51,287 nucleotides of DNA from a virus (IMGVR_UViG_3300034071_002527:1-51287); one strand, 5' to 3'; shown: positions 2,575-44,563, counted from the first letter of the stretch. Numbers and translations are program-made. Notes: generated by a model not told the origin, from the letters alone.

Positions 2575-2580
2575 CGCTCA
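2575..2580 (+). promoter_or_regulatory. CGCYCA leader motif upstream of the scaffold gene
   Basis: CGCTCA sits 50 nt before ATG 2631 and runs into a small CTCAA-(4-5 nt)-TTGAG inverted repeat. It is one of thirteen leader copies in the window. Confidence 0.55.
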
Positions 2581-2630
2581 AAATATTTGAGTAATCTAAA
2601 ATTAAGCTAAAATTAAGCTAAAAATAAAAT

Positions 2631-3251
2631 ATGACGTTAGAAGAATTAAAGGCATTATTGGAAGAGTCTCAAGCCTCGCTATTAAAGCAAGTCCAGACCA
2701 GTTTACAGGGAGTGAAAGGGGAAATTCTCCAAGAAGTGGACAAGAAAAATTCTGGGACAGTCAGTAGTCTAATAAAAAGTTTAAAACCTAAAGAAGAAAA
2801 AGTGCCAGTTCAGGAAGAAGAAAAAGCAACAGTTCAGGAAGAAGAAAAAACTAAATTAAGTTTAAAAGCATTGGAAAGACAAATTGCAGATTTTAAAGCG
2901 CAGTTAGAAGACAAAGACAAGAAATTACTTCTAAAAGAATTGGACGGCAATCTATTAAGTGCTTTGAATGGTAAAAAAGTTTTAAATAGTGCGATTGCTT
3001 TGAAGGTTTTTAAGTTAGAGAATGAGGGCAATTTGCAACAAGAAGACGGTGTATGGTATGTCAAGAGCGGAGAATCTGTAGTTTCGTTGGATACGGCTGT
3101 AGATAAGTTTTTAGAAACCGATTTCGGAAAAACCCTAGTACCTCCTACATCGAAAGCAAGAGGTAGTGGTTTAAAGCCTCAAAACACAACGGTAGCCCCC
3201 AAAGAAGATAGTAAAAAGAATATCCTTGATGAATTGTTTTTAGAGGACTAA
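2631..3251 (+). CDS. Probable capsid scaffolding protein
   Basis: The 206-residue, highly charged protein has a predicted N-terminal coiled coil (MTLEELKALLEESQASLLKQ), a Lys/Glu linker with the tandem unit VQEEEK, a second helix around residues 82-105, then a small mixed domain and a basic tail. Composition, size and position directly upstream of the major capsid gene match siphophage scaffold proteins. No protease domain is visible, so the scaffold may be released intact or cleaved by a protein elsewhere. The assignment comes from context and composition, not from a diagnostic motif. Confidence 0.6.
   Translation: MTLEELKALLEESQASLLKQVQTSLQGVKGEILQEVDKKNSGTVSSLIKSLKPKEEKVPVQEEEKATVQEEEKTKLSLKALERQIADFKAQLEDKDKKLLLKELDGNLLSALNGKKVLNSAIALKVFKLENEGNLQQEDGVWYVKSGESVVSLDTAVDKFLETDFGKTLVPPTSKARGSGLKPQNTTVAPKEDSKKNILDELFLED
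2806..2853 (+). repeat. 24-bp tandem repeat in the scaffold gene
   Basis: Two near-identical 24-bp units encode consecutive VQEEEK-type segments in the charged linker. Confidence 0.8.
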
Positions 3252-3259
3252 TCAAATCT

Positions 3260-3544
3260 TTAATAGATAGTCAAACAATGAAGAGCAAGCACAAATTTAA
3301 TCAAGTTTGCTTGTTCTTTAATGTTTAAGCTACGGTTTTTTAATTTTTCAAAATCAAAAACTACCCCTTCTACCATGTGGGAAAGAATCAAAGGAAAATC
3401 AAAAATAAAAACATCGGGATTGTCAGAATCAAAGGGATGAAGGTCAATCCAATAGTCCCAACTGGTGTCAGAAGTGGTAGAAATTTCTAAATGAAGATGG
3501 ATAGAATCGGAATGTTTATTGAACTCAAAATTTTTGACAATCAT
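3260..3544 (-). CDS. Hypothetical minus-strand insert between scaffold and capsid genes, 94 aa
   Basis: The product starts MIVKNFEFNKHSDSIHLHLE and contains alternating beta-type segments, then a Leu-rich helix at the C-terminus. No family is recognised. It lies against the direction of the surrounding structural genes and has its own promoter, so it behaves like a moron (an independently transcribed insert). The ribosome binding site is weak. Confidence 0.55.
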   Translation of the reverse strand: MIVKNFEFNKHSDSIHLHLEISTTSDTSWDYWIDLHPFDSDNPDVFIFDFPLILSHMVEGVVFDFEKLKNRSLNIKEQANLIKFVLALHCLTIY

Positions 3545-3567
3545 TGGAAATCTCGGCTGTTTTTTCT

Positions 3568-3597
3568 ATGATAGCACAAATTATAGAAATTTTTCAA
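3568..3597 (-). promoter_or_regulatory. Promoter for the 3260-3544 insert, minus strand
   Basis: On the minus strand TTGAAA is followed after 18 bp by TATCAT, preceded by TGTGC (extended -10 type). It lies 24 bp upstream of the ATG. Confidence 0.6.
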
Positions 3598-3601
3598 AAA
3601 A

Positions 3602-3630
3602 GTCGCCCAATTCTAAAATTAGAGTGCGAC
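3602..3630 (+). promoter_or_regulatory. CGCYCA motif in a hairpin upstream of the capsid gene
   Basis: CGCCCA at 3604-3609 is part of a stem GTCGC...GCGAC whose loop contains the palindrome CTAAAATTAG. It lies in the capsid gene leader, 98 nt before ATG 3708, the longest motif-to-start distance in the window. Confidence 0.5.
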
Positions 3631-3707
3631 TACAGGCCTATTTAACTTGTAGATACCGTTGTACCGGATAAAGTGCAAAAGAAAAATCTACAACAAACAC
3701 AAAGAAA

Positions 3708-4754
3708 ATGGCAAAGTTAAATTTGGCTGTACTCAATAACGTTTTTTCAGAGTTATTGACTCAAGAAATTAATCGTAGTGCAACGTTTTTAGGATTATTA
3801 AGCAAGTTTCCCGAACGCAAATCTAACATCCAATGGGGTGTAGGAATGGGAGGTACTACCGCAACTGGAGTAGCGATTACTGGTTCTGCACCTGCGGCTT
3901 CAATGGATGCAACGTTACCGGCGCAATTACCTATTAGTGCGGCAAGTGTTCAATCAACTTTTACCTTAAATCTGAAGGAAATCGAAGAGTCTAAAGAACA
4001 AGTGAGCAATGAGGAATTGCGTAATTTGTTGGAAGCCCAAATGCGAAACGCAGTTGAAGAAATTGCGACTACCCTGAACAAAAAACTGTATGATGGTTCT
4101 GGAGCTATTGCAGATGGGGGTTTAATTGGGTTATCAATTGCCGCTTCTGGACAAGACTACGCTGGTATTTCCAGTGCAACTTATCCGTTATGGAATGTCT
4201 CTGAAGTAGATGCGTGGGATGCTAGTGCAACGGGTACGGATAAGCGACAAGCCTTAAAAACTGATTTTTTGTTAGAGCTAGACCGTAAAATCCGTTATCG
4301 ACCTGGTGCGTATGACCTTATCTTGACGACTCCTAAAGTGGTAGAGCAGTACAAAAAAGTTTTTGAAACTAATCGTAGCTATCAAATCATGACTTTTGAA
4401 GGTCAGCGTGTACCTTTAATTGACTTAGGATTTAATGTGGCGGGGTACATGGGTCGCCCCATTATCGATGACGTATTCTGTTCTCGGACTCGGACTGCCG
4501 CAGAATCGGCTATCACTACTGCGGTAGGAACTGCGGTAGATGAAGGTGTAATGTATTTTCTGAAAAAAGACGATTTACGCTTCTATTCTACTCCTGTAGT
4601 CGGTGCTTTTTCTGCCAATGGGGTATATACCTTAATGCGTCAGTTAGCCCAAACTTCCTTGTATGTTGATAACTTTGTAGTTGGTTGTATTCCTCAATTA
4701 CAGTTGACTACTCGTAAGAATGTAGGGGTTATTAAAAACATTAAGGTAGGCTAG
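3708..4754 (+). CDS. Major capsid protein
   Basis: The 348-residue protein has the size and layout of an HK97-fold capsid subunit: an N-terminal arm (LAVLNNVFSELLTQEINRS), a long predicted helix (EELRNLLEAQMRNAVEEIATTLNKKLYDG, residues ~104-132) as in the spine helix, a central A-domain with DLILTTPKVVEQYKK, GYMGRPIIDDVFC, and a C-terminal beta segment rich in Thr and Val. No N-terminal prodomain is evident. It lies after the scaffold gene and is followed by a strong terminator, as expected for a highly expressed late gene. Confidence 0.85.
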   Translation: MAKLNLAVLNNVFSELLTQEINRSATFLGLLSKFPERKSNIQWGVGMGGTTATGVAITGSAPAASMDATLPAQLPISAASVQSTFTLNLKEIEESKEQVSNEELRNLLEAQMRNAVEEIATTLNKKLYDGSGAIADGGLIGLSIAASGQDYAGISSATYPLWNVSEVDAWDASATGTDKRQALKTDFLLELDRKIRYRPGAYDLILTTPKVVEQYKKVFETNRSYQIMTFEGQRVPLIDLGFNVAGYMGRPIIDDVFCSRTRTAAESAITTAVGTAVDEGVMYFLKKDDLRFYSTPVVGAFSANGVYTLMRQLAQTSLYVDNFVVGCIPQLQLTTRKNVGVIKNIKVG

Positions 4755-4777
4755 ATTTAACTCTAATTCCAAAAATT

Positions 4778-4806
4778 AAAGCAGGACTGTATGCCTGCTT
4801 TTTTTT
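4778..4806 (+). terminator. Rho-independent terminator after the capsid gene
   Basis: A stem AAGCAGG...CCTGCTT is followed by an uninterrupted T run. It ends just before the convergent gene at 4810. Confidence 0.9.
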
Positions 4807-4809
4807 GTT

Positions 4810-5352: not shown

Positions 5353-5358
5353 CGCTCA
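5353..5358 (+). promoter_or_regulatory. CGCYCA leader motif upstream of 5389
   Basis: CGCTCA lies 30 nt before ATG 5389 and only 7 bp from the -35 of the opposing minus-strand promoter, so the two signals are nearly back to back. Confidence 0.5.
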
Positions 5359-6711: not shown

Positions 6712-7221
6712 TTAGGGGTGAAATCCTGCTAAGGTTAATTTATGTTTTATTATGTTAACATGATTTTTCAGTTTTTGCAAGGATATTTTCAGTTCGGAGC
6801 AAATTAGTGCATAAGAACTATTCCTCGACCATCGCAAAGCAACAATCTGTTTTTCTACGGGTGTTAAGGATTCTAAGAAACTAGCCAAAATTAGCCTGTG
6901 TTCTTCGGAATCAGTAGAAAAGGTGGAAAACTTCAGAGAATTAGAAAGAAAATATTGCTGAGTCTGACGGTGTTTTAACCGATTAAATTTACATCGCAAA
7001 TCAAGCCAACAGTGGGTGGTTAGGGAACCTTTAGAGGGGTTCCAAGTTTTCAATTTTTTCAAAACGACAAGAATACCTTCTTGCATATAATCTTCACCAG
7101 ATACATCACAGTCAGACATAGCACGTTTAATGGCTTGCAATTGTGATTGAATCAGACTCAAAGTTTGATTGCTATAAAAAGCTTTGATTTGTTGTTGAGG
7201 GGTTAAATTTAGGTGTTGCAT
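6712..7221 (-). CDS. Phage-encoded sigma-70-family RNA polymerase factor
   Basis: The 169-residue protein has the two-domain layout of small sigma factors. A region-2-like part at residues ~43-84 contains DYMQEGILVVLKKLKTWNPS followed by FNRLKHR. A region-4-like helix-turn-helix at ~120-163 reads LTPVEKQIVALRWSRNSSY...LKISLQKLKNHVNIIKHKL. No region 1.1 or 3 is evident, as in ECF or phage late sigma factors. Such a protein binds host core polymerase and redirects it. It is first in an operon with thyX and has its own host-type promoter, which suits an early or middle gene. Its target sites are unknown; the CGCYCA motif is the obvious candidate. Confidence 0.75.
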   Translation of the reverse strand: MQHLNLTPQQQIKAFYSNQTLSLIQSQLQAIKRAMSDCDVSGEDYMQEGILVVLKKLKTWNPSKGSLTTHCWLDLRCKFNRLKHRQTQQYFLSNSLKFSTFSTDSEEHRLILASFLESLTPVEKQIVALRWSRNSSYALICSELKISLQKLKNHVNIIKHKLTLAGFHP

Positions 7222-7254: not shown

Positions 7255-7283
7255 ATTATATCACAAGATTTGAACTTAAGCAA
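7255..7283 (-). promoter_or_regulatory. Promoter of the sigma factor-thyX operon, minus strand
   Basis: TTGCTT, 17-bp spacer, TATAAT with TGA just before it (extended -10) on the minus strand, 34 bp upstream of ATG 7221. Confidence 0.7.
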
Positions 7284-7315: not shown

Positions 7316-7321
7316 CGCCCA
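7316..7321 (+). promoter_or_regulatory. CGCYCA leader motif upstream of the tape measure gene
   Basis: CGCCCA preceded by AAGCAA, 42 nt before ATG 7364. The same AAGCAA-CGCYCA arrangement recurs at 27317-27327. Confidence 0.55.
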
Positions 7322-17587: not shown

Positions 17588-17593
17588 CGCTCA
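17588..17593 (+). promoter_or_regulatory. CGCYCA leader motif upstream of 17636
   Basis: CGCTCA starts 4 nt after the stop of the previous gene and 42 nt before ATG 17636. A small CTCA-AAC-TGAG-type inverted repeat overlaps it. It breaks an otherwise coupled run of tail genes. Confidence 0.5.
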
Positions 17594-27321: not shown

Positions 27322-27327
27322 CGCTCA
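27322..27327 (+). promoter_or_regulatory. CGCYCA leader motif upstream of 27357
   Basis: AAGCAACGCTCAAAAT, 29 nt before ATG 27357; the flanks match the tape measure leader at 7311-7321. Confidence 0.55.
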
Positions 27328-28442: not shown

Positions 28443-28448
28443 CGCTCA
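28443..28448 (+). promoter_or_regulatory. CGCYCA leader motif upstream of the tail tube gene
   Basis: CGCTCA starts 3 nt after the previous stop and lies 47 nt before ATG 28496. Confidence 0.5.
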
Positions 28449-28495: not shown

Positions 28496-29134
28496 ATGGC
28501 AAAACGTTCCGGACCATCTCTAATTGAAATTGGTACTGGTGGGAATAAAATCACTATCACCAATGACCAACAAATGAATGATGCCACGCTGAGGATTGAA
28601 AGGGATGAGTTTACCCTTAAAGACCAAAGTTCCTCTAAACCGGTTGGCTATATTAAAACGGGTATTGAAGGTAAATTGGAAATCTCTATCTCAGACATTT
28701 CTGCTCAACAAATTGCTCTTCTTTTTGGTGTCCCTCTCCAATCCGACACTGATACGGTTAATACCGTTAACTACACTATGCGAAAAGTAGTAGTTACAGA
28801 CCAAGCAGGCACTGAGATTACTGGTCAAAAAGTTGTATTAAAACCTTATCCCCTTCTTACTGACCCCGGTACTGTTGCCCCCACTACTACCACTTATAAC
28901 GGTAAGATTTATGGTACTGTGCAATTAGCCGAAGATGCTTTTGATGCTGATGTAGCCGCCTATAAAGCTTGGGTTAATAACTGGGTAACTTTTCCTAACG
29001 GTGCATTGACTTCTATCAATGGTACTAACTTGGCTTTTGGGTTACAAACTCAACAAGAACTCAAAGTGACTCTCACATCTTTACCTGATAGCTCTGGTGT
29101 TCGGATTATTTTTGGTGATGAAACTGTAGCTTAA
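28496..29134 (+). CDS. Major tail tube protein
   Basis: The 212-residue protein is beta-rich, with a start typical of tube subunits (SLIEIGTGGNKITITNDQQ), alternating strands (GYIKTGIEGKLEISISDIS), and a segment that may be a surface insertion (residues ~125-165). A GGATAAA site precedes the start, and a strong terminator follows, as for an abundant virion protein. The neighbours (terminator-like gene before, assembly chaperone after) fit. Confidence 0.65.
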   Translation: MAKRSGPSLIEIGTGGNKITITNDQQMNDATLRIERDEFTLKDQSSSKPVGYIKTGIEGKLEISISDISAQQIALLFGVPLQSDTDTVNTVNYTMRKVVVTDQAGTEITGQKVVLKPYPLLTDPGTVAPTTTTYNGKIYGTVQLAEDAFDADVAAYKAWVNNWVTFPNGALTSINGTNLAFGLQTQQELKVTLTSLPDSSGVRIIFGDETVA

Positions 29135-29152
29135 CTCAAATTTTGAAATTAA

Positions 29153-29199
29153 AAAAGCCTCTCCCCTATACATTTAGGGGAGGGGGGGGATTTTTTTTA
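29153..29199. terminator. Bidirectional terminator between convergent genes
   Basis: A-run, stem CTCCCCT...AGGGGAG, then a T8 run on the plus strand; the A-run gives a T-run on the minus strand. It separates the tail tube gene from 29197-29478. Confidence 0.85.
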
Positions 29200-29478
29200 G
29201 CTCTCTGTAAAAGAAAACTCTAAATTTTTCAATTTTTTGATTTTTTTTTCAGCAGATTTAAGGGCAGAAGCTTTTCGTTTTTCAAAATTTGCTTTTGCTT
29301 CTTCAACGGTAAAAAAGGCTGACTTTCCTAGAGTATACGCAGTGTTCAGGCCAAACTGATTTTTTCCCCTTGCGAAACGTCCACACTCTGAAATTTCGGC
29401 ATCAGTTAAATAAACCCCTGATGTTAGGGCGTACTCGGTGACATAGACTTTTAGCAGTTTGGGCTGTGGATTATTCAT
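29197..29478 (-). CDS. Small phage protein with C-terminal coiled coil, 93 aa
   Basis: The start LLKVYVTEYALTSGVYLTDAEI resembles a family of small phage proteins beginning with a V-x-K/E-Y-A-L-T-x-G-I motif. The C-terminal half is a Lys/Ala-rich helix (FTVEEAKANFEKRKASALKS). Role unknown. Encoded against the structural genes with its own promoter, like the other minus-strand islands. Confidence 0.55.
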   Translation of the reverse strand: MNNPQPKLLKVYVTEYALTSGVYLTDAEISECGRFARGKNQFGLNTAYTLGKSAFFTVEEAKANFEKRKASALKSAEKKIKKLKNLEFSFTES

Positions 29479-29512
29479 TGTAAATTTTTGGGGGGGTTAA
29501 TTAGCTGTTCCC

Positions 29513-29541
29513 AGCTTAACAAAAAATTTCCCCTCTGTCAA
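29513..29541 (-). promoter_or_regulatory. Probable promoter for 29197-29478, minus strand
   Basis: TTGACA with a 17-bp spacer to a weak TAAGCT on the minus strand, 34 bp upstream of the ATG. The -35 adjoins the left arm of the large inverted-repeat element. Confidence 0.5.
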
Positions 29542-29887
29542 CACTCACAAACTGTACTACTTAGCCCAAAATCAATAAAACTCAACCATATCAAAGGTTT
29601 TAACAATTTAGACTTTTAAAAATACCATTTAAAAATCAATAAAACCCAGTCATAGTAAGGCTTTGACCCGTTTGTACTATGTAGTAGGGGGGATAACTTT
29701 ATTTTTTTTTATCTCTTGCCCCTTTAATCATCACATTTAGATACTAAAAAAACATATACCTCAACGAGTCAAAACTGTTTTTTGCTTTGACAGGGTTGGG
29801 TTTAGACTTTTTCGTTTATCAGCCTTTCCTTGCACTTAGAGCGGGTCGTAATACTTTTACCATTAAACGATTTTGTGATGGTCTAGA

Positions 29888-29919
29888 GGGTAAAAAATGG
29901 GTAAATGGGGAAATGTGGG
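29888..29919 (+). other. Four-run G tract (G-quadruplex-like)
   Basis: Four runs of three or four G are separated by 8, 5 and 6 bases. It lies inside the core of the inverted-repeat element, next to the AT-rich tract. A second G-rich block is at 30088-30110 (G4, G4, G3, G2). Confidence 0.5.
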
Positions 29920-29920
29920 C

Positions 29921-29952
29921 TAAATATTTAAAATATATATTTAATTTTTTGG
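29921..29952. other. AT-only tract in the core of the inverted-repeat element
   Basis: TAAATATTTAAAATATATAT and following bases up to 29950 contain no G or C. An easily melted stretch of this kind is typical of, but not specific to, replication origins. Confidence 0.5.
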
Positions 29953-30021
29953 TAGGTTGATTTGTAAATACCCTAGAATTAAAGCACTCTAGTATCCTAT
30001 CCCTCACTCTATTTTTTTTTC

Positions 30022-30040
30022 GCTATGTATATAGCATAGC
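30022..30040. repeat. Short palindrome GCTATG-N7-CATAGC
   Basis: A perfect 6-bp inverted repeat follows a T10 run inside the core of the large element. It could be a protein-binding site. Confidence 0.5.
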
Positions 30041-30378
30041 ATGGGAATAAACAAAATGTCAAGAGGTAGTGGAAAAATATTTTTTTAGGGGTAGGGGTAA
30101 GGGAGAAAGGCAAAAGCATGAGAGTTTTTTAATGCGATGATTAAAGAGGTGGGGGATAAAAAAAAATAAAGTTATCCCCCCTACTACATAGTACAAACAA
30201 GTCTAAGCCATACTAAGACTGGGTTTTATTGATTTTAAACTGGGGTTTTTTAAATTCAAAAACGCTAAAACCTTTGATATAATTGAGTTTTATTGGTTTT
30301 AGGCTAAGTAGTACAATCAATTTATCAACTGTTCAAAAAGTCATTTAATTTAGAGATTCTAAACTCCAAGGGAAAGTT

Positions 30379-30384
30379 CGCTCA
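30379..30384 (+). promoter_or_regulatory. CGCYCA leader motif upstream of the chaperone gene
   Basis: TTCGCTCAAATT, 40 nt before ATG 30425; the first such motif after the large inverted-repeat element. Confidence 0.55.
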
Positions 30385-30424
30385 AATTATGATTGACATT
30401 TCCACTTAAAGATTTGATTTAATT

Positions 30425-30907
30425 ATGCCCGAAACTTTGCCTAAGACTTCTATAATTGCCCAATTTTTAGATGAAGGGGAACCATTAGGTACTTTAATGC
30501 TAGATGGGACAGAATATAAAATCACAGCCCCTGAAGATTTATCTGAAGCCGAATATATTGAATATTTTCAAGCTAGAGCAGAAGCTATGGATGTTTTGGT
30601 TAGTGTTTACGGTGTTGAAAATGAAGATGGAGAACTAATACTTGAAAAAAGTGTAGGTGCTTCAGATTCAGTAAAAAAAGCTAAATTAGAAGCTTTAATG
30701 TATAAACCTGCCCGTCGAATGGTTGAAGCATTATTAGGAGTACCGGCTGGGACATTTAAACGAAAAAGAAGTAAAACAGTGATGTCATTATACAATCATT
30801 GTCAACAACTTTTAGAAAAAAAACAAACTGTCGAACCAGTCATCAAAACACAAAGTGCTGAGGAAGATTTAGAAGTCCCTTTGGATGGGAGAATCGAGCA
30901 AGAGTAG
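30425..30907 (+). CDS. Tail assembly chaperone, zero-frame product (gpG-like)
   Basis: The 160-residue acidic protein has a short beta part (LGTLMLDGTEYKITAPEDL) and a helical remainder. Length, position between the tail tube and the terminase block, and a slippery site just before its stop fit siphophage gpG-type chaperones, which bind the tape measure and tube subunits during tail assembly. Unlike the usual arrangement, the tape measure gene is far upstream (7364). The stop TAG overlaps GTG of the next frame. Confidence 0.65.
   Translation: MPETLPKTSIIAQFLDEGEPLGTLMLDGTEYKITAPEDLSEAEYIEYFQARAEAMDVLVSVYGVENEDGELILEKSVGASDSVKKAKLEALMYKPARRMVEALLGVPAGTFKRKRSKTVMSLYNHCQQLLEKKQTVEPVIKTQSAEEDLEVPLDGRIEQE
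30877..30883 (+). promoter_or_regulatory. Programmed -1 frameshift heptamer CCCTTTG
   Basis: The heptamer fits X_XXY_YYZ in the zero frame (gtC CCT TTG). After a -1 slip the reading continues CCC TTT GGA TGG without a stop into the 30907-31218 frame. It lies ~20 nt before the zero-frame stop. This mirrors the G/GT arrangement of lambda-like tails. Confidence 0.65.
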
Positions 30908-31218
30908 TGAGATATGTTAACACTCTTATCGATTGTCTACCAATATTTTATAGTTTTGGTATTTCTAGATTAGAACTTTTAAAAATGCGCCATTGGGAAG
31001 TTCTAGAAATCATATCAGGACACTATAAACATCGTGCTAGATTAGTGCTTGATTTGACCGATGCTGTAACTTTAGGGGCTGGATGGGGTGATGCAGAATC
31101 TAAAGAACAAATGCAACGTAATTTAGTGGATAAAGCTGGATTCCCTCGTCGTAAAACGAAAGTACCTAAAAAGTTCACAGGAAAATCTTGGACTTCTGAT
31201 TTGATGACTGCGATTTAA
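30907..31218 (+). CDS. Tail assembly chaperone -1 extension (T part of a GT fusion)
   Basis: The frame (from GTG 30907, open back to the slip site at 30877) encodes YVNTLIDCLPIFYSFGISRL and MRHWEVLEIISGHY, then a basic C-terminus (FPRRKTKVPKKF). Such helical, tail-chaperone extensions are normally made only as a fusion. The fused product would be about 264 residues. No ribosome binding site precedes GTG 30907, which supports expression by frameshift. Confidence 0.6.
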   Translation: MRYVNTLIDCLPIFYSFGISRLELLKMRHWEVLEIISGHYKHRARLVLDLTDAVTLGAGWGDAESKEQMQRNLVDKAGFPRRKTKVPKKFTGKSWTSDLMTAI

Positions 31219-31258
31219 CCTTGAAAACAAATAGCCAAATTAAGTAACTAAAAATGGA

Positions 31259-31801
31259 ATGTCTAAACTAATTAAATTAACAAATCCTGAAGAAGTTCCT
31301 GAGTTAATAAAAGAGGCTATTTGTTATTATAGGGGTTGTTATCCTCAATATTCAGATGCTGAAATAGCCAGACGAGTTAATAAAAATCTTGATTGCATTA
31401 CTATAGACGAAAAACTTGTTTTAAATGTTTTACAATTAGAGCCAGACCGTCTTTTTAAACATAAATTTGGAGGAGCGGAATCTGTAAAATTAGGGGTACT
31501 TTTAGGGGAACTAAAATTTTCCACGTTACACTCTAGAGTCAAATTTTTAACCGATATAATGATAATGGGTAAAGAAGGATATGAAGAACAAAAAGCTACT
31601 AACAGAGGTGATATTGTTACTTTGACAGCTAAAAACCTCAATGCCTCATTAGAAGCACATAAACAATTAGGAATGATTCTCGAAAAAGTTGATTCTCTGA
31701 CAGAACGGGAAGAAGAAGTCTTTTTAGAAGTTGATGTTTACCCACAATTTTTACCTACTATGAACCTTGCTTCTAATGATGAAGACGATGTTTTGAACTG
31801 A
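31259..31801 (+). CDS. Putative terminase small subunit
   Basis: The 180-residue protein contains a helix-turn-helix-like part, YSDAEIARRVNKNLDCITIDEKLVLNVL (residues ~30-57), followed by a helical region and an acidic C-terminus. Small terminase subunits combine such a DNA-binding start with an oligomerisation helix, and this gene is the best candidate upstream of the large subunit. No direct family motif is recognised, so this is a positional call. Confidence 0.4.
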   Translation: MSKLIKLTNPEEVPELIKEAICYYRGCYPQYSDAEIARRVNKNLDCITIDEKLVLNVLQLEPDRLFKHKFGGAESVKLGVLLGELKFSTLHSRVKFLTDIMIMGKEGYEEQKATNRGDIVTLTAKNLNASLEAHKQLGMILEKVDSLTEREEEVFLEVDVYPQFLPTMNLASNDEDDVLN

Positions 31802-31850
31802 AACACTCCTCACCCATTTCAAGATTAATCCTTTATTTAAAACCTACCAA

Positions 31851-32489
31851 ATGGTCAACATTGCAAAAGGTCTTAAACCCAAGAACCGCTCACAAGCAAA
31901 ATTCTTACAATCCATTCGAGAGAATACCATCACTTTAGGAATTGGTGAAGCAGGGACAGGAAAAACGTTATTAGCCTTGTATGCGGCTATTTTAGCTATA
32001 AATAATCCGGAATCTCCTATTGATTCTATTCTTTATGTCAGACCATTTGTTAATGAACCAGATGAACAAGATATTGGGGCTTTACCTGGTGAATACGGGG
32101 AAAAAATTGATTTTTTAGGACTTCCTCTTTGGACTAATTTATCTGAAATTTGTTCCCCTGATGAGCTTAGAAAGTTTAAAACTAGATTAGAAATTTCACA
32201 TATTGGAAAACTTAAAGGTGCATCATTATCTAACACATTTATTATTTTTGATGAAGCAGAAGATGCGACTCAAAGACTTTTTAATTGTGTAATCACGAGA
32301 ATCTCTCACGGGTCAAAACTTGTTATTATTGGCGACCCATCCCAAAGTAGTCTGGATTGTGGAGGCTTTTTTCATGTTGCGGCACATAGATTATTAGATA
32401 CTCCAGATGTAGGGATTGTTTGGTTTCCTAAAGGTTCCTGTGTGAGACATCCTATAATTCCTCATGTATTAAGTGCTTTGGCATCTTAA
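31851..32489 (+). CDS. phoH: PhoH-family P-loop ATPase
   Basis: Walker A GEAGTGKT (residues ~32-39), Walker B FIIFDEAED (~129-137) and the sensor segment VIIGDPSQSS (~158-167) define the PhoH family, related to SF1 helicases. NRSQAKFLQSI at the N-terminus is also typical. PhoH is widespread in cyanophages; its substrate is not settled, and RNA-related roles are proposed. It sits between the putative small and the large terminase genes. Confidence 0.85.
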   Translation: MVNIAKGLKPKNRSQAKFLQSIRENTITLGIGEAGTGKTLLALYAAILAINNPESPIDSILYVRPFVNEPDEQDIGALPGEYGEKIDFLGLPLWTNLSEICSPDELRKFKTRLEISHIGKLKGASLSNTFIIFDEAEDATQRLFNCVITRISHGSKLVIIGDPSQSSLDCGGFFHVAAHRLLDTPDVGIVWFPKGSCVRHPIIPHVLSALAS

Positions 32490-32491
32490 TC

Positions 32492-32522
32492 AAAAAAAAA
32501 GCTTGCCAACAAAAGTTGGCAA
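32492..32522 (-). terminator. Rho-independent terminator for the MazG gene, minus strand
   Basis: On the minus strand the stem TTGCCAAC-TTTT-GTTGGCAA is followed by GC and a T9 run. On the plus strand no T run follows, so it works mainly for 32559-33191. Confidence 0.85.
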
Positions 32523-32558
32523 CAGTTTACCTAAATTTTGGGTTAAAATTGAAAAACC

Positions 32559-33191
32559 TTAACGGAAATCACCGTCTCCCTGGATAGTACCCGCATTTTT
32601 GCGATTTGTCAACTTATTAGTGTTACCATCCATGACAGTTTTCAAATCACTATTCAAGTCATAGGCTAGTTCGTCTATTGTCAAGAACATAAGGATTAGG
32701 TAGGATTCACAAAAAACCTGTAAAAGAGTCAAGTCTTGATAATTAGAGTCACCACGAGCATATTTTTTGATAAGCCCTGCTAATGTTCCCGACGCAAAAT
32801 TAAGAGTCATATAAGTCGTGAAAAAATCTGATTCTTCAAGACTTTTATTAACTTCCGACTCTAGATAATATTGAGCATTAACTATAAAACTTTTGACAGA
32901 GCGATAACCAAGGTGAATACACAAACGAGTCACATAGTAAAGCATATCGCCTAGCTCTAAAAGCAACTTGGTTCGTTCTATGTCTAAAACACTTTCTTCG
33001 ACCCCTAGCTCACCGTCTTGATGACCAATAAGCAAGGCAAAAGAGTCGTTAGCAAATTCGTTGATTTCACTAATCAAACCGAGAGTAACGTATTCCAGTG
33101 ATTTTTCTGAAGGATATACGACGGTAGTGCTTGTGAACTCCCAGTAAGAAGTTAGTGCATTAACAAAGTCTTTGTCGAGGGATTGACGCAT
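32559..33191 (-). CDS. mazG: MazG-like nucleoside triphosphate pyrophosphohydrolase
   Basis: The 210-residue helical protein has the MazG-type pattern: YVTLGLISEINEFAND (E-x-x-E) at residues ~34-49 and LLLELGDMLYYVTRLC (E-x-x-D) at ~76-91. It ends VMDGNTNKLTNRKNAGTIQG then DGDFR, matching the N-x-x-K-L-x-x-R-K-x-x-G-x-I-x-G-x-G-D-x-R tail of phage MazG proteins. It would hydrolyse dNTPs or ppGpp-like nucleotides in the infected cell. It is a minus-strand island with its own promoter and terminator, inserted between PhoH and TerL. Confidence 0.8.
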   Translation of the reverse strand: MRQSLDKDFVNALTSYWEFTSTTVVYPSEKSLEYVTLGLISEINEFANDSFALLIGHQDGELGVEESVLDIERTKLLLELGDMLYYVTRLCIHLGYRSVKSFIVNAQYYLESEVNKSLEESDFFTTYMTLNFASGTLAGLIKKYARGDSNYQDLTLLQVFCESYLILMFLTIDELAYDLNSDLKTVMDGNTNKLTNRKNAGTIQGDGDFR

Positions 33192-33222
33192 AATTTAATC
33201 TTAGCTAATACCAGTTATATAG

Positions 33223-33251
33223 ATAATAGCACTTCTAAACTAGATTGTCAA
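33223..33251 (-). promoter_or_regulatory. Sigma-70 promoter for the MazG gene, minus strand
   Basis: TTGACA, 17-bp spacer and TATTAT preceded by GTGC on the minus strand, 31 bp upstream of ATG 33191. Confidence 0.85.
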
Positions 33252-33299
33252 GGGGTTTTTGCAAATCTGTGTTAAGACGCTTAAAGTTAAGGAAATTTT

Positions 33300-33305
33300 C
33301 GCCCA
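33300..33305 (+). promoter_or_regulatory. CGCYCA leader motif upstream of TerL
   Basis: TTCGCCCATTTT, 43 nt before ATG 33349. Confidence 0.55.
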
Positions 33306-33348
33306 TTTTTTTGATGAGAGTTTCGACAAACTTTGAATAGGGTTTTGG

Positions 33349-36204
33349 ATGTTAAAAAAGGATAAAACATTAAAGTTATATTTGCACCCAGGTCAACAAA
33401 CAGTATTTGTCAGTCCTAAAAGATTTAAAGTATTAGTCAGTTCCCGAAGATACGGTAAATCGAGACTCATGTTGACAATGATTATTGATAAGGCACTTAA
33501 CTATAAAGGGGCGTATGATAAAGCATCACCGCCTGTCGTTTTATTAGGAATGCCATCTTTAAAACAAGCCAAACAAATTCATTGGAATCCTTTAGTAAAA
33601 TTATTAGAAGGGCATCCTGGAATAGAGAGAATTTACAAATCTGAATGTCGAATTTCATTTAAAGGAAACAAACCAGATATAATTTTAAGGGGTTTAAATG
33701 AGGACAATGGGGACAATTGTAGGGGGCTAAAAATTTATTTCGCAGGATTAGATGAAATGCAAGACGTTAAACCTATAGCATGGATGGAAGTTATTATGCC
33801 AGCATTAATTGATACAAAAGGGTCATGCGCTTTATTGACAGGTTGTGTGGCTCCTAACACCTTTGTCTTACCTAGACAAGGCATGACAGAAATTGTTGAA
33901 TTTAATCAGGATAGTTGTGCAAAAGAGTATCAACCGCTAAAAGATGTTGAACTTTATGGACTCAATAATGAATTTCATAAGGCAGATTCTTTTTTTAATA
34001 ATGGATATACCGAGACAAAAATCATCACATCTTCTTTTGGATTCACTTTAGAAGCTTCTTTAAACCATCCTATTTTGACAAAAAATGGCTGGAAAAAAAT
34101 GGAAGAACTGAAAGAGGGGGACACTGTGGCTATAGCACATGGTATGGACATTTGGGGTACTAAAGACCCTATAGATGGTTTCAAAATCAAAAGACAATAT
34201 GTTCCTAAAACAAAAGGTTGGCTACAACCTAATCAAGGCATGACCAAAGATTTTGCCTATTTTCTTGGTCTATGGTTATCCCAAGGAACCCACAAAAAAC
34301 AAAATGGTAAGTATTACATTAGCGTAAAAACTACTACTCAACAAGTGAGAGAGTTTCTAGAAAGTGGTAAGATTTTAGGGGCTATGTTTAAACAAGATGT
34401 AGGAAATGTTTGGTCGTATGTAGATAGCGATTTAGTAGAGTTACTAAAGCATATTGGGATGTCTACTGTGAGTCGGAGAAGAAGAACCTTACCATTATGG
34501 TTGTTTCAAGGGCGTAAATCTTGGGCTATCTCTTTTATTCAAGGGTATATGGACATTGCTGGTTCGATTGGTACTACAGGTAACAGAGTAGCAAAAATTA
34601 TTCATTTCACTTGTAATAAAACATTAGCTCAACAATTTCAATTGTTACTTTCTAACTTAGGAGTAATTGCAAAAGTTTTTTTATTACCACATGACCCAGA
34701 AATGGCACAATTAGAACTAACTGGTTCACATTTTGATACTTATTGTCAATTAATTGGTTTTGGGTCTGATAACAAAAAAACAAGTAGCCTAGGAGTACAA
34801 AAGTTAAACCCTCCAGATGAACCGTTTAATTCTAATGACTATTTTTGGGACACTATAGAATCAATTAGTGACTCTGAAAATCAGACTTACGATTTTACAG
34901 TACCTAACACAAATTCTTTCTGGAGTAACGGGTTTATTAGCCATAATACACCTAAAGGTTATGGAACTTTTTTTCACAGTTTGTACGAAAATGGGGATAA
35001 ATACAAAGATTGGGAATCTTTCCATCGTACAATTTATGACAACCCCTTTATTCCTCGTGAAGAAATTGAACGTATAAAAGAATCTTTACCAGAAAAAGTA
35101 TTTAGACAAGAATGTTTGGCTTCTTGGGAAAATTTTGATGGTCAAATTTTTTCTGCCTTATCTACTGACAATATTATTTCTGATGAGAATTTACCTACTT
35201 ACTTTGAACAAGTATATTTAGGTGTTGACTGGGGAGATGTCAATCCTGCTTTAGTTGTGGTGGGTAAAATGGGTAACACTTACTTTATTATTGATTTTTG
35301 GGAAAATCCTAACCCTAATACTGCCATTGAACAACGAGTTCACAACGACAAAGCTCTTCAGTTTGTGAGTGAACACAATGTGAGCCGTTCATTTGCTGAC
35401 CCTTCACAACCCGGTCGAATTTTAACTATGAGAAAGTCTGGGATTCCTAAACTTATGGGGGGTTATAACCGTGTTAGTGAAGGCAATGGTATTGTAAACA
35501 CTTTACTTTATCAAAAACGCTTAATGATCGCCGAATCTTGCAGAAGGGTTTATGAAGATATGGGAGCATATCATCGGACATCTAAAGAAGGATTTATTAG
35601 AGAAGAAGTCGCTGAATCTCAACAAGACCATCTTTGTTTTGTGGCTGGCACACAGGTTTTAACAGAAACAGGATGGCAAAATATAGAAAGCCTGAAAGTT
35701 AAAAACAAAGTGTGGTCTTCTAATGGATTAAAAAATATTACTTTCACTGGTTCCCGATTGGCAGAAACGATAGAAGTTAAAGATTACAATTCTTCTGCTA
35801 TTGTGCGCTGTACTCCAGACCACCCCTTTTACACGAATAATGGTTTGATAAGTGCCGAGAACCTTAGTGTTATGAACCATTTAAACCATCTTGACCAATC
35901 TCAATGGGGGTCACTTATAGGAATTTCTAAAATAACAGATACTCTATGGTCAAGCCCAGCCCTAGAATGTGTAGGTAATTTCTCAATAAACCGAGTATAT
36001 AACATAGAAGTCGAGGAGTCACACAATTACTTCATCAAAATTGGCTCAAACGCAGTCTTAGTCAGTAATTGCGATGCTTTAAGATATGTGTTAGCAACTT
36101 TAGAACATAAAAACATCGAAAACATTATCCCAGAGGGTTCAGTCATTACTACACCAGAAAGACCCGTTACAAAGTCTAACTCTTTATTTGCGGGCTTAAT
36201 TTAA
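33349..36204 (+). CDS. terL: Terminase large subunit interrupted by two inteins
   Basis: The 951-residue precursor contains ~438 residues of TerL, the normal size, plus inteins at residues 166-533 and 763-907. The ATPase has Walker A SSRRYGKS (residues ~30-37) and Walker B YFAGLDEMQ (~129-137). The split motif III reads ALLTG/TPKGYG across intein 1. The nuclease domain includes YLGVDWGDVNPA and a C-terminal DHL/CDALRY split by intein 2. Both inteins interrupt motifs essential for packaging, so TerL can act only after two splicing events. TerL translocates DNA into the prohead through the portal and cuts it. Confidence 0.92.
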   Translation: MLKKDKTLKLYLHPGQQTVFVSPKRFKVLVSSRRYGKSRLMLTMIIDKALNYKGAYDKASPPVVLLGMPSLKQAKQIHWNPLVKLLEGHPGIERIYKSECRISFKGNKPDIILRGLNEDNGDNCRGLKIYFAGLDEMQDVKPIAWMEVIMPALIDTKGSCALLTGCVAPNTFVLPRQGMTEIVEFNQDSCAKEYQPLKDVELYGLNNEFHKADSFFNNGYTETKIITSSFGFTLEASLNHPILTKNGWKKMEELKEGDTVAIAHGMDIWGTKDPIDGFKIKRQYVPKTKGWLQPNQGMTKDFAYFLGLWLSQGTHKKQNGKYYISVKTTTQQVREFLESGKILGAMFKQDVGNVWSYVDSDLVELLKHIGMSTVSRRRRTLPLWLFQGRKSWAISFIQGYMDIAGSIGTTGNRVAKIIHFTCNKTLAQQFQLLLSNLGVIAKVFLLPHDPEMAQLELTGSHFDTYCQLIGFGSDNKKTSSLGVQKLNPPDEPFNSNDYFWDTIESISDSENQTYDFTVPNTNSFWSNGFISHNTPKGYGTFFHSLYENGDKYKDWESFHRTIYDNPFIPREEIERIKESLPEKVFRQECLASWENFDGQIFSALSTDNIISDENLPTYFEQVYLGVDWGDVNPALVVVGKMGNTYFIIDFWENPNPNTAIEQRVHNDKALQFVSEHNVSRSFADPSQPGRILTMRKSGIPKLMGGYNRVSEGNGIVNTLLYQKRLMIAESCRRVYEDMGAYHRTSKEGFIREEVAESQQDHLCFVAGTQVLTETGWQNIESLKVKNKVWSSNGLKNITFTGSRLAETIEVKDYNSSAIVRCTPDHPFYTNNGLISAENLSVMNHLNHLDQSQWGSLIGISKITDTLWSSPALECVGNFSINRVYNIEVEESHNYFIKIGSNAVLVSNCDALRYVLATLEHKNIENIIPEGSVITTPERPVTKSNSLFAGLI
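33844..34947 (+). other. Intein 1 (368 aa) with degenerate LAGLIDADG endonuclease
   Basis: Block A begins at Cys166 (CVAPNTFVLPRQGM). Block B is around SLNHPILTKNGW. Block G ends FISHN, with +1 Thr of the extein (TPKG). Between them are two LAGLIDADG-like helices: LGLWLSQGT, where the usual D is Q, and GYMDIAGSI, where the usual catalytic D is A. Splicing residues (Cys1, block-B His, His-Asn, +1 Thr) are intact; the endonuclease is probably inactive. Confidence 0.88.
35635..36069 (+). other. Intein 2 (145 aa), mini-intein
   Basis: It starts at Cys763 (CFVAGTQVLTETGWQNIESL), has block B VRCTPDHPFYTNNG, block F VYNIEVEESHNYFI and ends VLVSN before +1 Cys. There is no room for an endonuclease. 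The penultimate residue is Ser instead of the common His. The insertion lies at the conserved C-terminal DALRY nuclease motif. Confidence 0.88.
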
Positions 36205-36216: not shown

Positions 36217-36247
36217 CGCCCAACACTTTAGTAGCGTTGGGTTTTTT
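36217..36247 (+). promoter_or_regulatory. CGCYCA motif followed by a terminator-like hairpin before the portal start
   Basis: CGCCCA at 36217-36222 overlaps the 5' arm of CCCAAC...GTTGGG followed by T6; ATG 36249 comes directly after. The structure could end TerL transcription, or shape the start of a portal transcript. Confidence 0.6.
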
Positions 36248-40656: not shown

Positions 40657-40678
40657 TTCGCTCAATCTTTTAGCGAAT
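40656..40678 (+). promoter_or_regulatory. Hairpin with CGCYCA motif before tRNA-Trp
   Basis: ATTCGCT...AGCGAAT is a perfect 7-bp stem containing CGCTCA (40659-40664). An opposite-strand copy (TGGGCG) follows at 40678-40683, overlapping the tRNA start. No T run follows, so a terminator is unlikely. Confidence 0.55.
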
Positions 40679-40680
40679 GG

Positions 40681-40753
40681 GCGTTCTTAGTTCAGTTGGT
40701 AGAACGCAGGTCTCCAAAACCTGATGTCGGGGGTTCAAGTCCTCCAGGGCGCG
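40681..40753 (+). tRNA. trnW: tRNA-Trp (CCA)
   Basis: The 73-nt gene folds as a cloverleaf: acceptor GCGTTCT/AGGGCGC with G-U pairs and discriminator G, D stem GTTC/GAAC, anticodon stem CAGGT/ACCTG with loop CTCCAAA (anticodon CCA), and T stem GGGGG/CCTCC. CCA is not encoded. The sequence is of the chloroplast/cyanobacterial type. It lies 24 bp after the head-associated gene, as the only tRNA in the window. Confidence 0.93.
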
Positions 40754-40787
40754 TTTGGTAATCACCAAGCCGATTATTGCAAAAGAC

Positions 40788-41265: not shown

Positions 41266-41358
41266 TTGACAAATTTAAACTAATCGGTTATAATAAAATC
41301 GTAACTCCTTATTACTTAAGCCCTCTACTTGACCCTCTACCAAACTAGAGGGCTTTTT
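41266..41358 (+). ncRNA. Promoter-terminator pair: possible ~58-nt small RNA or attenuator
   Basis: TTGACA (41266-41271), 17 bp, TATAAT (41289-41294) is a perfect sigma-70 promoter. About 25-50 nt further on is an intrinsic terminator ending in T5 at 41354-41358. Its 3' arm AGAGGGC can pair with either of two upstream CCCTCTA copies (41321-41327 and 41333-41339), giving two mutually exclusive hairpins. There is no open reading frame. The transcript would be about 58 nt if it ends there. Confidence 0.6.
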
Positions 41359-41359
41359 C

Positions 41360-41400
41360 TTGACCTAGGCGATAAGTTTTTCTTATATGTCGTATAAGAA
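41360..41400 (+). promoter_or_regulatory. Weak promoter overlapped by an operator-like inverted repeat
   Basis: TTGACC is followed after 17 bp by TTATAT. An 8-bp perfect inverted repeat TTCTTATA-N5-TATAAGAA (41380-41400) covers the -10. This arrangement suits a repressor site controlling 41448-42011. Confidence 0.45.
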
Positions 41401-41447
41401 TTAATAATCCTAAACCAGTTGTATCTTTCAACCACATCTGCTAAAAT

Positions 41448-42011
41448 ATGTCTAATAGTCAATCAACAAAATTCTCTAATCTACCCACGGAGTCATTAAA
41501 AAACATGGCTATTCATTTTCAAGATAAACTACCTGTGGTAATCTCAATTGGTGAGGGTGTAGCGGAAAACACCTTTAGTTTTATTCAGCCATCTCACCTA
41601 CACTCAATTAAAATTGTCAATTTTTCCATATCGGATTTAAAAGACAGAATAACGCAGTCGCTATCTAATCAAGATTGGAACGAGGTTGATTGGGCAAAAT
41701 TTTGGGTTAAAGAATTTTCGAGAGTTTTAGGATATAATCAGGAAAATTATCAACTAAATAAACTGGATGAATACCTTAAACAAAAAAACTCGAAGATTAT
41801 AATTTTAATTGATGGACTAGAAAATATTTTTTCTGATTTAGCCCATGATAACTTTCAACAAACAGCTTTAAAAGCATTAATCGATAATTTGCCGAATAAA
41901 TTAACAGAAATTAAGCAATCTAATCTAGGATTGATTGTCTTTCTCCACAGAGATTCCCTGAGAAAAGCAATTAAGCAAAACTCAGGACAATTTGAAAGCT
42001 TATATCAGTGA
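41448..42011 (+). CDS. P-loop ATPase fragment of host type
   Basis: The 187-residue protein has KIIILIDGLENIFSDL (a Walker-B-like strand and Asp, residues ~113-128) and LGLIVFLHRDSLRKAIKQNS (~163-182), similar to segments of larger cyanobacterial ATPase/ParA-like proteins. The expected Walker A is absent: VVISIGEGVAEN lies where it might have been. It ends after SLYQ, where related proteins continue. It may be a captured and trimmed host gene. It is flanked by an operator-like site and a terminator. Confidence 0.45.
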   Translation: MSNSQSTKFSNLPTESLKNMAIHFQDKLPVVISIGEGVAENTFSFIQPSHLHSIKIVNFSISDLKDRITQSLSNQDWNEVDWAKFWVKEFSRVLGYNQENYQLNKLDEYLKQKNSKIIILIDGLENIFSDLAHDNFQQTALKALIDNLPNKLTEIKQSNLGLIVFLHRDSLRKAIKQNSGQFESLYQ

Positions 42012-42091: not shown

Positions 42092-42131
42092 AACTCAGAC
42101 ATATATTAAATAACTTTACCGGTCTTTAATT

Positions 42132-43037: not shown

Positions 43038-43054
43038 AATCTTTGAAAAAGGGG

Positions 43055-43083
43055 TTGACAACTCGTAAAAAACCAGCTAGTAT
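43055..43083 (+). promoter_or_regulatory. Probable promoter upstream of 43229
   Basis: TTGACA, 17-bp spacer, TAGTAT. It implies a leader of ~140 nt. Confidence 0.5.
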
Positions 43084-43136
43084 AGGAAATATAGACAACG
43101 CGACTAGGTTCTAGCTTAAACACAGTGCCTCTACCC

Positions 43137-43177
43137 CGCTCACGTCTAAGATGCTAGTTTTGCTGATTCTAGCAAAA
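43137..43177 (+). promoter_or_regulatory. CGCYCA motif and hairpin in the 43229 leader
   Basis: CGCTCA at 43137-43142 is followed by a perfect 7-bp hairpin TTTTGCT-N6-AGCAAAA (43158-43177). This is the only motif copy next to a host-type promoter and the most divergent in flanks. Confidence 0.4.
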
Positions 43178-43228
43178 ATCAAAAATCAGACCTCAAAATC
43201 AACCAAACTCTCTCAAAACCTACTAATT

Positions 43229-44206
43229 ATGTCCTACAACTCTGTCGTAAGTTATGATAAACTTGAAGCCCTTCTCTCCTCGAAAAATTGGGATAAATCC
43301 TACGTCAACATTCCAAACTCGTCAATCGGAACTCTTCTTAAGTCCCAATTTAAATACATTTTCGAGTCCGTCGGAGAGACCTTTTCCGATAACGAATCAG
43401 TATTAACCGTACAAGCAGATAACGGGAACTTAAAACGCTTATTCAGCCCTACTGTTTACCATGTATCCAACGATAAGCTTCGTGAATCTGCCTACGCTAA
43501 AGCAAATCCTAGCTTATTTGAATGTGATAGCACCCCTGTTTCAGACGAAGACAAAACCAAAGCAAAAACTCCTGAAGCCATCAAAGCTTATGAAGATTTA
43601 TTGCTGAAAGGGCGGAATGTCGCCGTCCGTATGGGAGCTAAACTTTTTGTTCCTTTATTAGCTTTTAAAGCCATAGAAGGTTGCGATATTGCTTTAGACA
43701 ACGGTGACATAGAGATTACCTTGCCAGAAACAGAACAGTTTCCTGAAGGTCTTACTGTAAAATTCAATGTTCGTTACTCTGAATCTGACCTAGAGAAGCG
43801 GAAATCTCAAGAAGCATCTTTTAAACGGGCGTTTTCACGGTATCTCAAAAACTCCGAAAACAACTTAGGTGCTTTTCTATGTGAACCCCCTACCGGTGGT
43901 GGTAGTGGTATTCCTCTCCGTGATATGGACGAAAATTCTGTTCATACCGTAATCGGTTATGAATTTAAAGAGTCGGAAAATGGAGGTTTTTACATCCTTT
44001 CGTTAGACTCTGGTATTTCTGTCATGAGCAACAAAGCTTTAGCTACTACCTTGCGTGGAAACCCTATCATTTCTCTTGACAAACCCTGTACTCTACGAAT
44101 TGCTGACAAGAAAAAAATGACTAATGGCAACATAAAGGTAAATGCCGCTCTTTTAATTCCTGTGGAAAACTATCCTAATGATGATGGTTTCAACCTAGAC
44201 TGGTAG
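43229..44206 (+). CDS. Hypothetical protein, possible DNA-metabolism role, 325 aa
   Basis: ATG 43229 (MSYNSVVSYDKLEALLSS) is chosen; an ATG at 43151 would put the leader hairpin in the coding region. The protein is mixed alpha/beta (LLKGRNVAVRMGAKLFVPLL, then EITLPETEQFPEGLTVKFN), with a C-terminal beta part ending in an acidic, aromatic tail (NDDGFNLDW). An acidic tail is typical of single-stranded-DNA-binding proteins, and the neighbours are a nuclease and a helicase, but no OB-fold motif is clear. Function unassigned. Confidence 0.5.
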   Translation: MSYNSVVSYDKLEALLSSKNWDKSYVNIPNSSIGTLLKSQFKYIFESVGETFSDNESVLTVQADNGNLKRLFSPTVYHVSNDKLRESAYAKANPSLFECDSTPVSDEDKTKAKTPEAIKAYEDLLLKGRNVAVRMGAKLFVPLLAFKAIEGCDIALDNGDIEITLPETEQFPEGLTVKFNVRYSESDLEKRKSQEASFKRAFSRYLKNSENNLGAFLCEPPTGGGSGIPLRDMDENSVHTVIGYEFKESENGGFYILSLDSGISVMSNKALATTLRGNPIISLDKPCTLRIADKKKMTNGNIKVNAALLIPVENYPNDDGFNLDW

Positions 44207-44281
44207 TCCGATTCTAGGGGTGGATTTAGTCTCTGCCCCTCCTTGTCCCCTTTTTAAACCCTTACCCCCCTTGTTTTTTCT

Positions 44282-44503
44282 ATGCCTAATAACTTTGATT
44301 TTTCTCAATACGATGGAGAACTCGAAAATGAGTGTACTTTATTGACTCGAAAAATCCTCGATACTCGTCGTCGCATTCAAAAAACTTTAGACTGTAACGA
44401 GTATCGTTTGGCTTCTCGCACCATTTTATTAGACGCAGTTAACCATCTAAACTTGCTTCTAAAGGACATATTTGACACCTACGACGAATTTACTAACGAG
44501 TAG
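44282..44503 (+). CDS. Small helical protein, 73 aa
   Basis: Acidic and helical (YDGELENECTLLTRKILDTR, then LLDAVNHLNLLLKDIFDTYD). It starts directly after a C/T-rich leader with no clear ribosome binding site. Codon use is like its neighbours. Family unknown. Confidence 0.5.
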   Translation: MPNNFDFSQYDGELENECTLLTRKILDTRRRIQKTLDCNEYRLASRTILLDAVNHLNLLLKDIFDTYDEFTNE

Positions 44504-44523
44504 GTATAGTTTCCTGCTTATAA

Positions 44524-44563
44524 CGCTCAAACCCAAGATTAGGTCATAATATCTTGGGTTTTT
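44524..44563 (+). promoter_or_regulatory. CGCYCA motif plus terminator-like hairpin before the endolysin gene
   Basis: CGCTCA (44524-44529) is followed at once by a 10-bp perfect stem AACCCAAGAT...ATCTTGGGTT and T3, with ATG at 44566. The layout repeats that before the portal gene. Confidence 0.65.

Follow-up and report, generated by a model that had tools for sequence, protein, structure and literature searches.

Motif leaders in the window and its relatives

Analysis of the virus record IMGVR_UViG_3300034071_002527 from IMG/VR (51,287 bases; the whole stretch is called the window here) revealed 93 to 95% identity to the Microcystis siphophage Mic1 (MN013189, 92.6 kb) and a recurring hexamer, CGCYCA (CGCTCA or CGCCCA), in the leaders of its scaffold, capsid, tail, TerL, portal, and endolysin genes. 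A sequence-only reading had listed thirteen such leaders and taken the hexamer for a late promoter element. All thirteen coordinates were read correctly, on the plus strand. The Mic1-type records form two clades and comprise, beyond the window and Mic1, two records of full or nearly full length and a number of shorter ones. Clade A consists of the window, Mic1, and the record G001; clade B (G002 to G006, 41% GC) shows approximately 73% nucleotide identity to clade A where alignable. Protein identity between the clades is 81% for the major capsid protein (MCP) and approximately 43% for the sigma factor. Scans of IMG/VR with MCP, sigma, and tail-tube profiles, together with two GTDB scans, yielded no third Mic1-type clade. 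A DNA pattern scan returned 91 stretches, which outside Mic1-type phages correspond by our estimate to about chance level. The motif sites of the window are listed below, with distances in nucleotides (nt).

2575 to 2580, plus strand: CGCTCA, scaffold unit (gp42 homologue), 50 nt before ATG; preceded by a gene on the opposite strand; also present in clade B
3604 to 3609, plus strand: CGCCCA, MCP unit (gp40), 98 nt before ATG; 98 to 104 nt in all relatives
5353 to 5358, plus strand: CGCTCA, gp38 unit, 30 nt before ATG; CGCCCA in G001; also present in clade B
7316 to 7321, plus strand: CGCCCA, tape measure unit (gp35), 42 nt before ATG; transcribed divergently from the sigma gene
17588 to 17593, plus strand: CGCTCA, tail operon (gp33 to gp24), 42 nt before ATG; also present in clade B
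27322 to 27327, plus strand: CGCTCA, gp23 connector unit, 29 nt before ATG; also present in clade B
28443 to 28448, plus strand: CGCTCA, tail tube (gp20), 47 nt before ATG; also present in clade B
30379 to 30384, plus strand: CGCTCA, gp94 unit, 40 nt before ATG; kept in clade B
31811 to 31816, plus strand: variant CACCCA, PhoH (gp97, late L1 in Mic1), 34 nt before ATG; aligns with CGCCCA of Mic1 and G001
33300 to 33305, plus strand: CGCCCA, TerL (gp1, late L1 in Mic1), 43 nt before ATG; follows the opposite-strand MazG gene
36217 to 36222, plus strand: CGCCCA, portal (gp2), 26 nt before ATG; kept in clade B
40659 to 40664, plus strand: CGCTCA, tRNA-Trp, 16 nt upstream of the tRNA; absent from Mic1 and G001
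43137 to 43142, plus strand: CGCTCA, gp7 unit, 86 nt before the ATG at 43229; CGCCCA in Mic1 and G001
44524 to 44529, plus strand: CGCTCA, endolysin (gp9, late L1 in Mic1), 36 nt before ATG; kept in clade B

On both strands of the whole window, 26 copies of CGCYCA were counted against 12.8 expected. The copies in coding DNA (12, six on each strand) are at chance level; the non-coding DNA (4.2 kb) holds 13 sense copies and one antisense copy. Dinucleotide shuffling of the non-coding DNA gave a mean of 0.46 and a maximum of 4 in 2000 shuffles, so that the enrichment stands against a composition-matched null. Among the 40,960 hexamer patterns that allow one degenerate position or none, CGCYCA ranked first in this DNA (Poisson p = 2e-15). 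The leaders of all eight Mic1-type genomes were likewise enriched, with 12 to 24 sense copies per genome versus 0.4 to 0.8 expected; the same procedure gave p = 4e-14 to 1e-26 in the seven relatives. The shuffle counts in the window and the relatives rule out chance or base composition as the source of the excess. An antisense excess in leaders proved to be an artifact of divergent leaders counted twice, and conserved "motifs" before gp25, gp29, and gp83 were excluded because they lie inside the coding sequence of the upstream gene (Ala-Gln codons in the case of gp25).

Comparison of the genes with orthologues in both clades revealed that the motif is kept in clade B in 13 of 16 clade A motif leaders, compared to 5 of 49 other leaders (Fisher p = 2e-7). 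The spacing to the start codon is similar between the clades (scaffold, 39 to 52 nt; tape measure, 39 to 47 nt; gp38, 30 to 31 nt; MCP, 98 to 104 nt). The aligned cores of clade A vary at the C/T position alone, with three T-to-C changes; the 25 nt upstream are 82% identical. Two entries of this alignment do not represent motif changes: the Mic1 TerL leader, which was misplaced because it falls at the record origin and has an intact core at 92579, and the tRNA site found only in the window. No enrichment of CGCYCA was found in Leptolyngbya phage Lbo402-yong5, Anabaena phage A-1(L), or Microcystis phage Ma-LMM01 (approximately 50 kb each, the latter two covered in part), which rules out a host element common to cyanophages. 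Lbo402-yong5 and A-1(L) share portal homology with Mic1-type phages, and Lbo402-yong5 also shares MCP homology. The control phages without a gp36-type sigma factor, including a Microcystis phage, are those without motif enrichment.

The spacing of 26 to 50 nt proposed for most copies holds for 10 of the 13 window sites, the exceptions being MCP (98 nt), gp7 (86 nt), and tRNA-Trp (16 nt to the tRNA). Across the independent leaders as a whole, most distances are 24 to 53 nt. The MCP leader (window 3604 to 3708) is approximately 100 nt long in all relatives and carries a conserved GAGTGCGACTAC / GAGGCGAACTAC stretch downstream of the motif, which may be a further leader element. The CGCTCA and tRNA-Trp cassette (window 40657 to 40754) is positioned between gp3 and gp4, which overlap in Mic1; tRNA-Trp is absent from Mic1 and G001, and other relatives have tRNA-Met elsewhere. 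The structural module and TerL are on the same strand in the window and G001 and on opposite strands in Mic1 and clade B. This inversion (window 29134 to 33349 versus Mic1 23974 to 24612 and 89000 to 92627) possibly arose through non-coding repeats.

Association with late genes and contrast with host-type promoters

RNA sequencing (RNA-seq) of Mic1 supplies early, middle, and late gene classes (PMC11237433), and the timing analysis was restricted to the classes printed in the main text of that paper. The motif was present in the own leader of 5 of 12 named late genes (gp1, gp9, gp16, gp42, and gp97) and of 0 of 41 named early or middle genes (Fisher p = 3e-4), an association with experimentally late genes. 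In addition, late gp14 lies downstream of gp16 in a motif-headed operon, and late gp30 to gp32 lie in an operon headed by the motif-bearing gp33. The Mic1 early block (gp49 to gp73, 12 kb of non-coding DNA) contains no sense copy before an early gene and one antisense copy. Exactly two genes in this block, gp67 and gp61, fall outside the early class (PMC11237433). CGCTCA is positioned upstream of gp67, 34 nt before a small unannotated reading frame; this lysine-rich frame (MKKKSCGKKIKKVTPKPVKPNK) lies at 65582 to 65650 of the Mic1 record. Upstream of gp61, CACTCA is found in clade A and GACAATACACCCA in clade B.

The statement that almost all motif units lack a host promoter was borne out: motif leaders, including that of the tape measure gene (gp35), score no better for TTGACA/TATAAT than shuffled DNA. 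A second group of genes carries such promoters, which are listed below with the sigma factor gene.

6712 to 7221, minus strand: sigma factor gp36, 169 amino acids, regions 2 and 4
7255 to 7283, minus strand: host-type promoter of the sigma gene, TTGCTT-17-TATAAT, TG-extended
33223 to 33251, minus strand: host-type promoter of MazG (gp98, middle M2)
45401 to 45429, plus strand: host-type promoter of primase (gp10, middle M1), TTGACA-17-TATGAT
48463 to 48491, plus strand: host-type promoter of RNA ligase (gp12, middle M1)
49735 to 49763, plus strand: host-type promoter of the KilA-N gene

TTGACA-17-TATnnT-like promoters precede the primase, RNA ligase, KilA-N, MazG, and minus-strand genes, none of which has CGCYCA. 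The host-type promoters of the window share a TTGACA-like -35 and a TG-extended -10 (GTGCTATNNT) and end 22 to 38 nt before the start codon. The sequence-only reading had called these genes early-type. The presence of host promoters and the lack of the motif were confirmed; the timing needs correction, as the genes are middle in Mic1 RNA-seq where classified (RNA ligase gp12, gp10, and MazG; PMC11237433), and the gene that had been named helicase is the primase gp10. The host-type promoters are uniform and constitute a second class, in agreement with the middle genes of Mic1 wherever a class is assigned. At CGCYCA itself, there are a strand and position bias, a link to late genes, conservation in two clades, and no host elements. 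The enrichment, the relatives, and the association with late Mic1 genes together support a late promoter.

Probable promoter architecture, leader hairpins, and the sigma factor gp36

In the alignment of independent sites, CGCYCA is followed by A at +6 and C or T at +9; position +15 is T in clade A and either T or A in clade B. Weak purine/T preferences lie 12 to 17 nt after the core start. Upstream of the core, A-richness alone was found, plus GACAATAA in part of clade B; the A-rich sequence described earlier is thus present, as a weak preference only. Single-base variants of CGCYCA are barely enriched, which indicates a strict core. Among relaxed cores, CACYCA alone is in slight excess (approximately 2-fold, clade A); other C-to-T changes in the core are not enriched, and a single C/T position is tolerated. 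No -35 or TAnnnT was present at a fixed offset from the core in 48 independent leaders, and no -35 or host -10 was found around the core at fixed or flexible spacing. A recurring upstream TGTCAAGG, considered as a -35, is the reverse complement of TTGACA from divergent promoters.

These data bear on where transcription begins. CGCYCA might itself be a -35 or activator box acting with a weak host-like -10 downstream, of which the purine/T preferences could be the trace. We consider this very improbable: TAnnnT is not enriched at any offset, and a start approximately 30 nt further on would make several transcripts begin in the Shine-Dalgarno sequence or at the start codon (spacings as short as 24 nt). 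One leader of G005 has AGGAGG between the core and a start codon 24 nt away, with a Shine-Dalgarno-like match 15 nt past the core; a transcription start 30 nt past the core would not fit here, and the core is too close to be a -35. Furthermore, 6 of the 13 motif units in the window lie immediately behind a gene on the other strand and lack a host-type promoter; these six therefore need a promoter of their own. Because of the short core-to-start spacing, the promoterless units, and the endolysin leader, transcription is predicted to start approximately 7 to 10 nt after the core. Hairpins adjoin the core in two leaders of the window.

44529 to 44561, plus strand: endolysin leader hairpin, 11-bp stem, 5' arm abutting the core
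36218 to 36242, plus strand: terminator-like hairpin overlapping the portal core, 7-bp stem and T run; clade A only

The endolysin hairpin starts at the end of the core, is followed by a T run, and has a stem of 11 bp in clade A and of 12 bp with a different sequence in clade B. Five stem positions differ between the clades and are paired in both. RNA starting at core +12 or later loses this hairpin (-16 to -3 kcal/mol in the window and -20 to -3 kcal/mol in G005). In phage T4, long early transcripts of gene e fold and block lysozyme translation, and late transcripts lack the 5' strand of the fold (PMC3014915). The endolysin leader suggests the same arrangement, in which the hairpin would act either by termination or by blocking the ribosome. 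The portal hairpin is missing from clade B; in clade A, portal transcripts begun at the motif would likewise be without its 5' arm. In G001 (41300 to 41680), the portal motif is duplicated around a small inserted reading frame, once as CGCTCA and once as CGCCCA.

The hairpins beside the portal and endolysin copies, the constant sense orientation near start codons, and a C/T tolerance compatible with G-U pairing at one position would also suit a signal acting in RNA, namely antitermination, processing, stability, or translation of late leaders. The motif leaders, however, share no common RNA structure, the core being paired in some and free in others. One copy precedes a tRNA gene, C-to-T changes elsewhere in the core show no enrichment, the six units behind opposite-strand genes would be left promoterless, and transcripts starting just past the core would escape the endolysin hairpin. 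An RNA-level role is weakened by these observations, and we regard it as quite improbable.

The sigma-like factor that the sequence-only reading ascribed to the phage corresponds to gp36, which is 163 to 169 amino acids long across Mic1-type genomes and was found in 9 of 9 records. Profile analysis predicted Sigma70_r2 at residues 27 to 70 (E = 5e-4) and Sigma70_r4 at residues 116 to 149 (E = 4e-3) with Pfam, and TIGR02937 with E = 2e-7 and 1e-8 in the two clades, all below the curated cut-offs. Searching the Protein Data Bank (PDB) by profile revealed sigma-H 3mzy (E = 2e-6). The AlphaFold model has a mean predicted local distance difference test (pLDDT) score of 72 (approximately 87 in region 2), and its top Foldseek matches are sigma and extracytoplasmic function (ECF) sigma structures, matched weakly. 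As in ECF factors, the protein consists of regions 2 and 4 and lacks regions 1.1 and 3. A TG-extended TATAAT promoter precedes its gene in the window; the clade B counterpart is TTGACA/TATACT. In Mic1, the gene is middle-expressed (M2; PMC11237433). Between the clades, region 2 is 58 to 66% identical and region 4 is 38% identical, as expected if the shared constraint is on the -10 element only. The complete or long Mic1-type genomes yielded neither a second sigma factor nor a polymerase, whether single-subunit or multisubunit. Because a sigma factor is present in every genome, no other sigma factor or polymerase was found, expression is middle, and region 2 is conserved, we infer, as the simplest account rather than a demonstrated one, that gp36 recognizes CGCYCA.

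The DNA element might instead be read by an unrecognized phage RNA polymerase or by an activator together with the host enzyme. A very strict core without a -35 is as in single-subunit polymerase or activator sites, and approximately 63% of the Mic1 reading frames have no known function (PMC11237433). Nevertheless, neither RNA_pol (PF00940) nor Rpb1 gave a match in Mic1, G001, or G005, and a T7 positive control was detected; a T7-type polymerase promoter was rejected on this basis. An activator box used with a host sigma would require a host -10 at a fixed distance, and none was found. Such a reader is unlikely.

Promoter function of CGCYCA is thus a well-supported inference, and the motif is probably the core of a late promoter specific to the phage, occupying the -10 position and used by host RNA polymerase that carries the phage sigma factor gp36. 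The core would lie at about -13 to -8, with no -35 and weak preferences to +17, and the two-domain, ECF-like gp36 would direct host RNA polymerase to it. The sigma gene would be transcribed from its host-type promoter in the middle phase; its promoter and its middle expression indicate that late transcription would follow sigma synthesis. Endolysin transcripts reading in from upstream would carry the hairpin and be terminated or have their start codon blocked, and those begun at the motif would lack the 5' arm and be translated. If only motif-started RNA is translated, lysis would occur late only.

Several points weigh against this interpretation. A sigma factor with region 4 is usually expected to read a -35, and the core is stricter than most sigma sites, as its single-base variants are hardly enriched. 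The Foldseek matches of gp36 to sigma factors are weak (E of approximately 0.04), and the link between sigma factor and motif is drawn from one phage family. Two late genes, gp13 and gp81, have leaders that lack the motif; for late gp80, clade A has only the variant CACTCA, and clade B has CGCCCA 109 nt upstream.

Relation to known promoters and meaning

T4 late promoters consist of TATAAATA at -13 to -6 and are read by sigma gp55 with the co-activator gp33 and the gp45 clamp. CGCYCA resembles them in being a short, strict single block in the probable -10 region, with no -35, before late genes of a phage with a small sigma factor. It differs in its G+C-rich core with a C/T position, and gp36 differs from gp55 in its recognizable region 4; the Mic1-type phages, unlike T4, are siphophages of a freshwater cyanobacterium. 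The -10 elements of ECF sigma factors can contain C or G. Like these group 4 factors, gp36 has regions 2 and 4 only, and its best profiles are of ECF type (TIGR02937); unlike ECF promoters, CGCYCA has no conserved -35 at 16 to 17 bp upstream, and the gp36 profile scores are below curated cut-offs.

The position of the proposed late promoter at the 5' foot of the endolysin leader hairpin corresponds to T4 gene e, whose late promoter lies within the 5' strand of a hairpin that inhibits expression (PMC3014915). Phages phiEco32 and 7-11 also encode a sigma factor and have a single phage-specific motif (tAATGTATA) before structural genes (PMC4331800), but that motif is A+T-rich, unrelated to CGCYCA, and also serves middle genes. 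Microcystis phage Ma-LMM01 likewise has early, middle, and late classes, all of which use host SigA-like promoters without a phage-specific motif (PMC5780444); CGCYCA, by contrast, precedes late units of Mic1-type phages and is not enriched in the examined part of Ma-LMM01. Phage sigma factors with single-block late promoters are therefore already known (T4 gp55; phiEco32 and 7-11, PMC4331800), and CGCYCA would be a new phage sigma-type late promoter with an unusually strict, G+C-rich core. There is also a slim chance that the apparatus itself is undescribed, either a two-domain sigma factor using a strict G+C-rich -10 alone despite its region 4 or an unrecognized polymerase. Late operons, a tRNA gene, and an endolysin switch like that of T4 gene e would then be built on one hexamer.

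A full-text literature search revealed no paper linking CGCTCA to phage promoters. The Mic1 transcriptome paper does not mention promoters (PMC11237433), and the one published promoter analysis of a Microcystis phage (Ma-LMM01) reported host-type signals only (PMC5780444). If the interpretation is correct, CGCYCA would be, as far as could be found, the first phage-specific late promoter for Microcystis phages, and gp36, previously annotated only, would gain a role. The timing of the Mic1 lytic cycle becomes testable from public RNA-seq reads (SRR27490991 to SRR27491041; PMC11237433), and the strict core makes it possible to locate late units in metagenomic relatives. Judging from the endolysin leader, a phage family with no apparent relation to T4 may also have evolved the gene e safeguard against premature lysis, using another promoter. 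The late promoter would explain how viruses of bloom-forming algae time their assembly and lysis.

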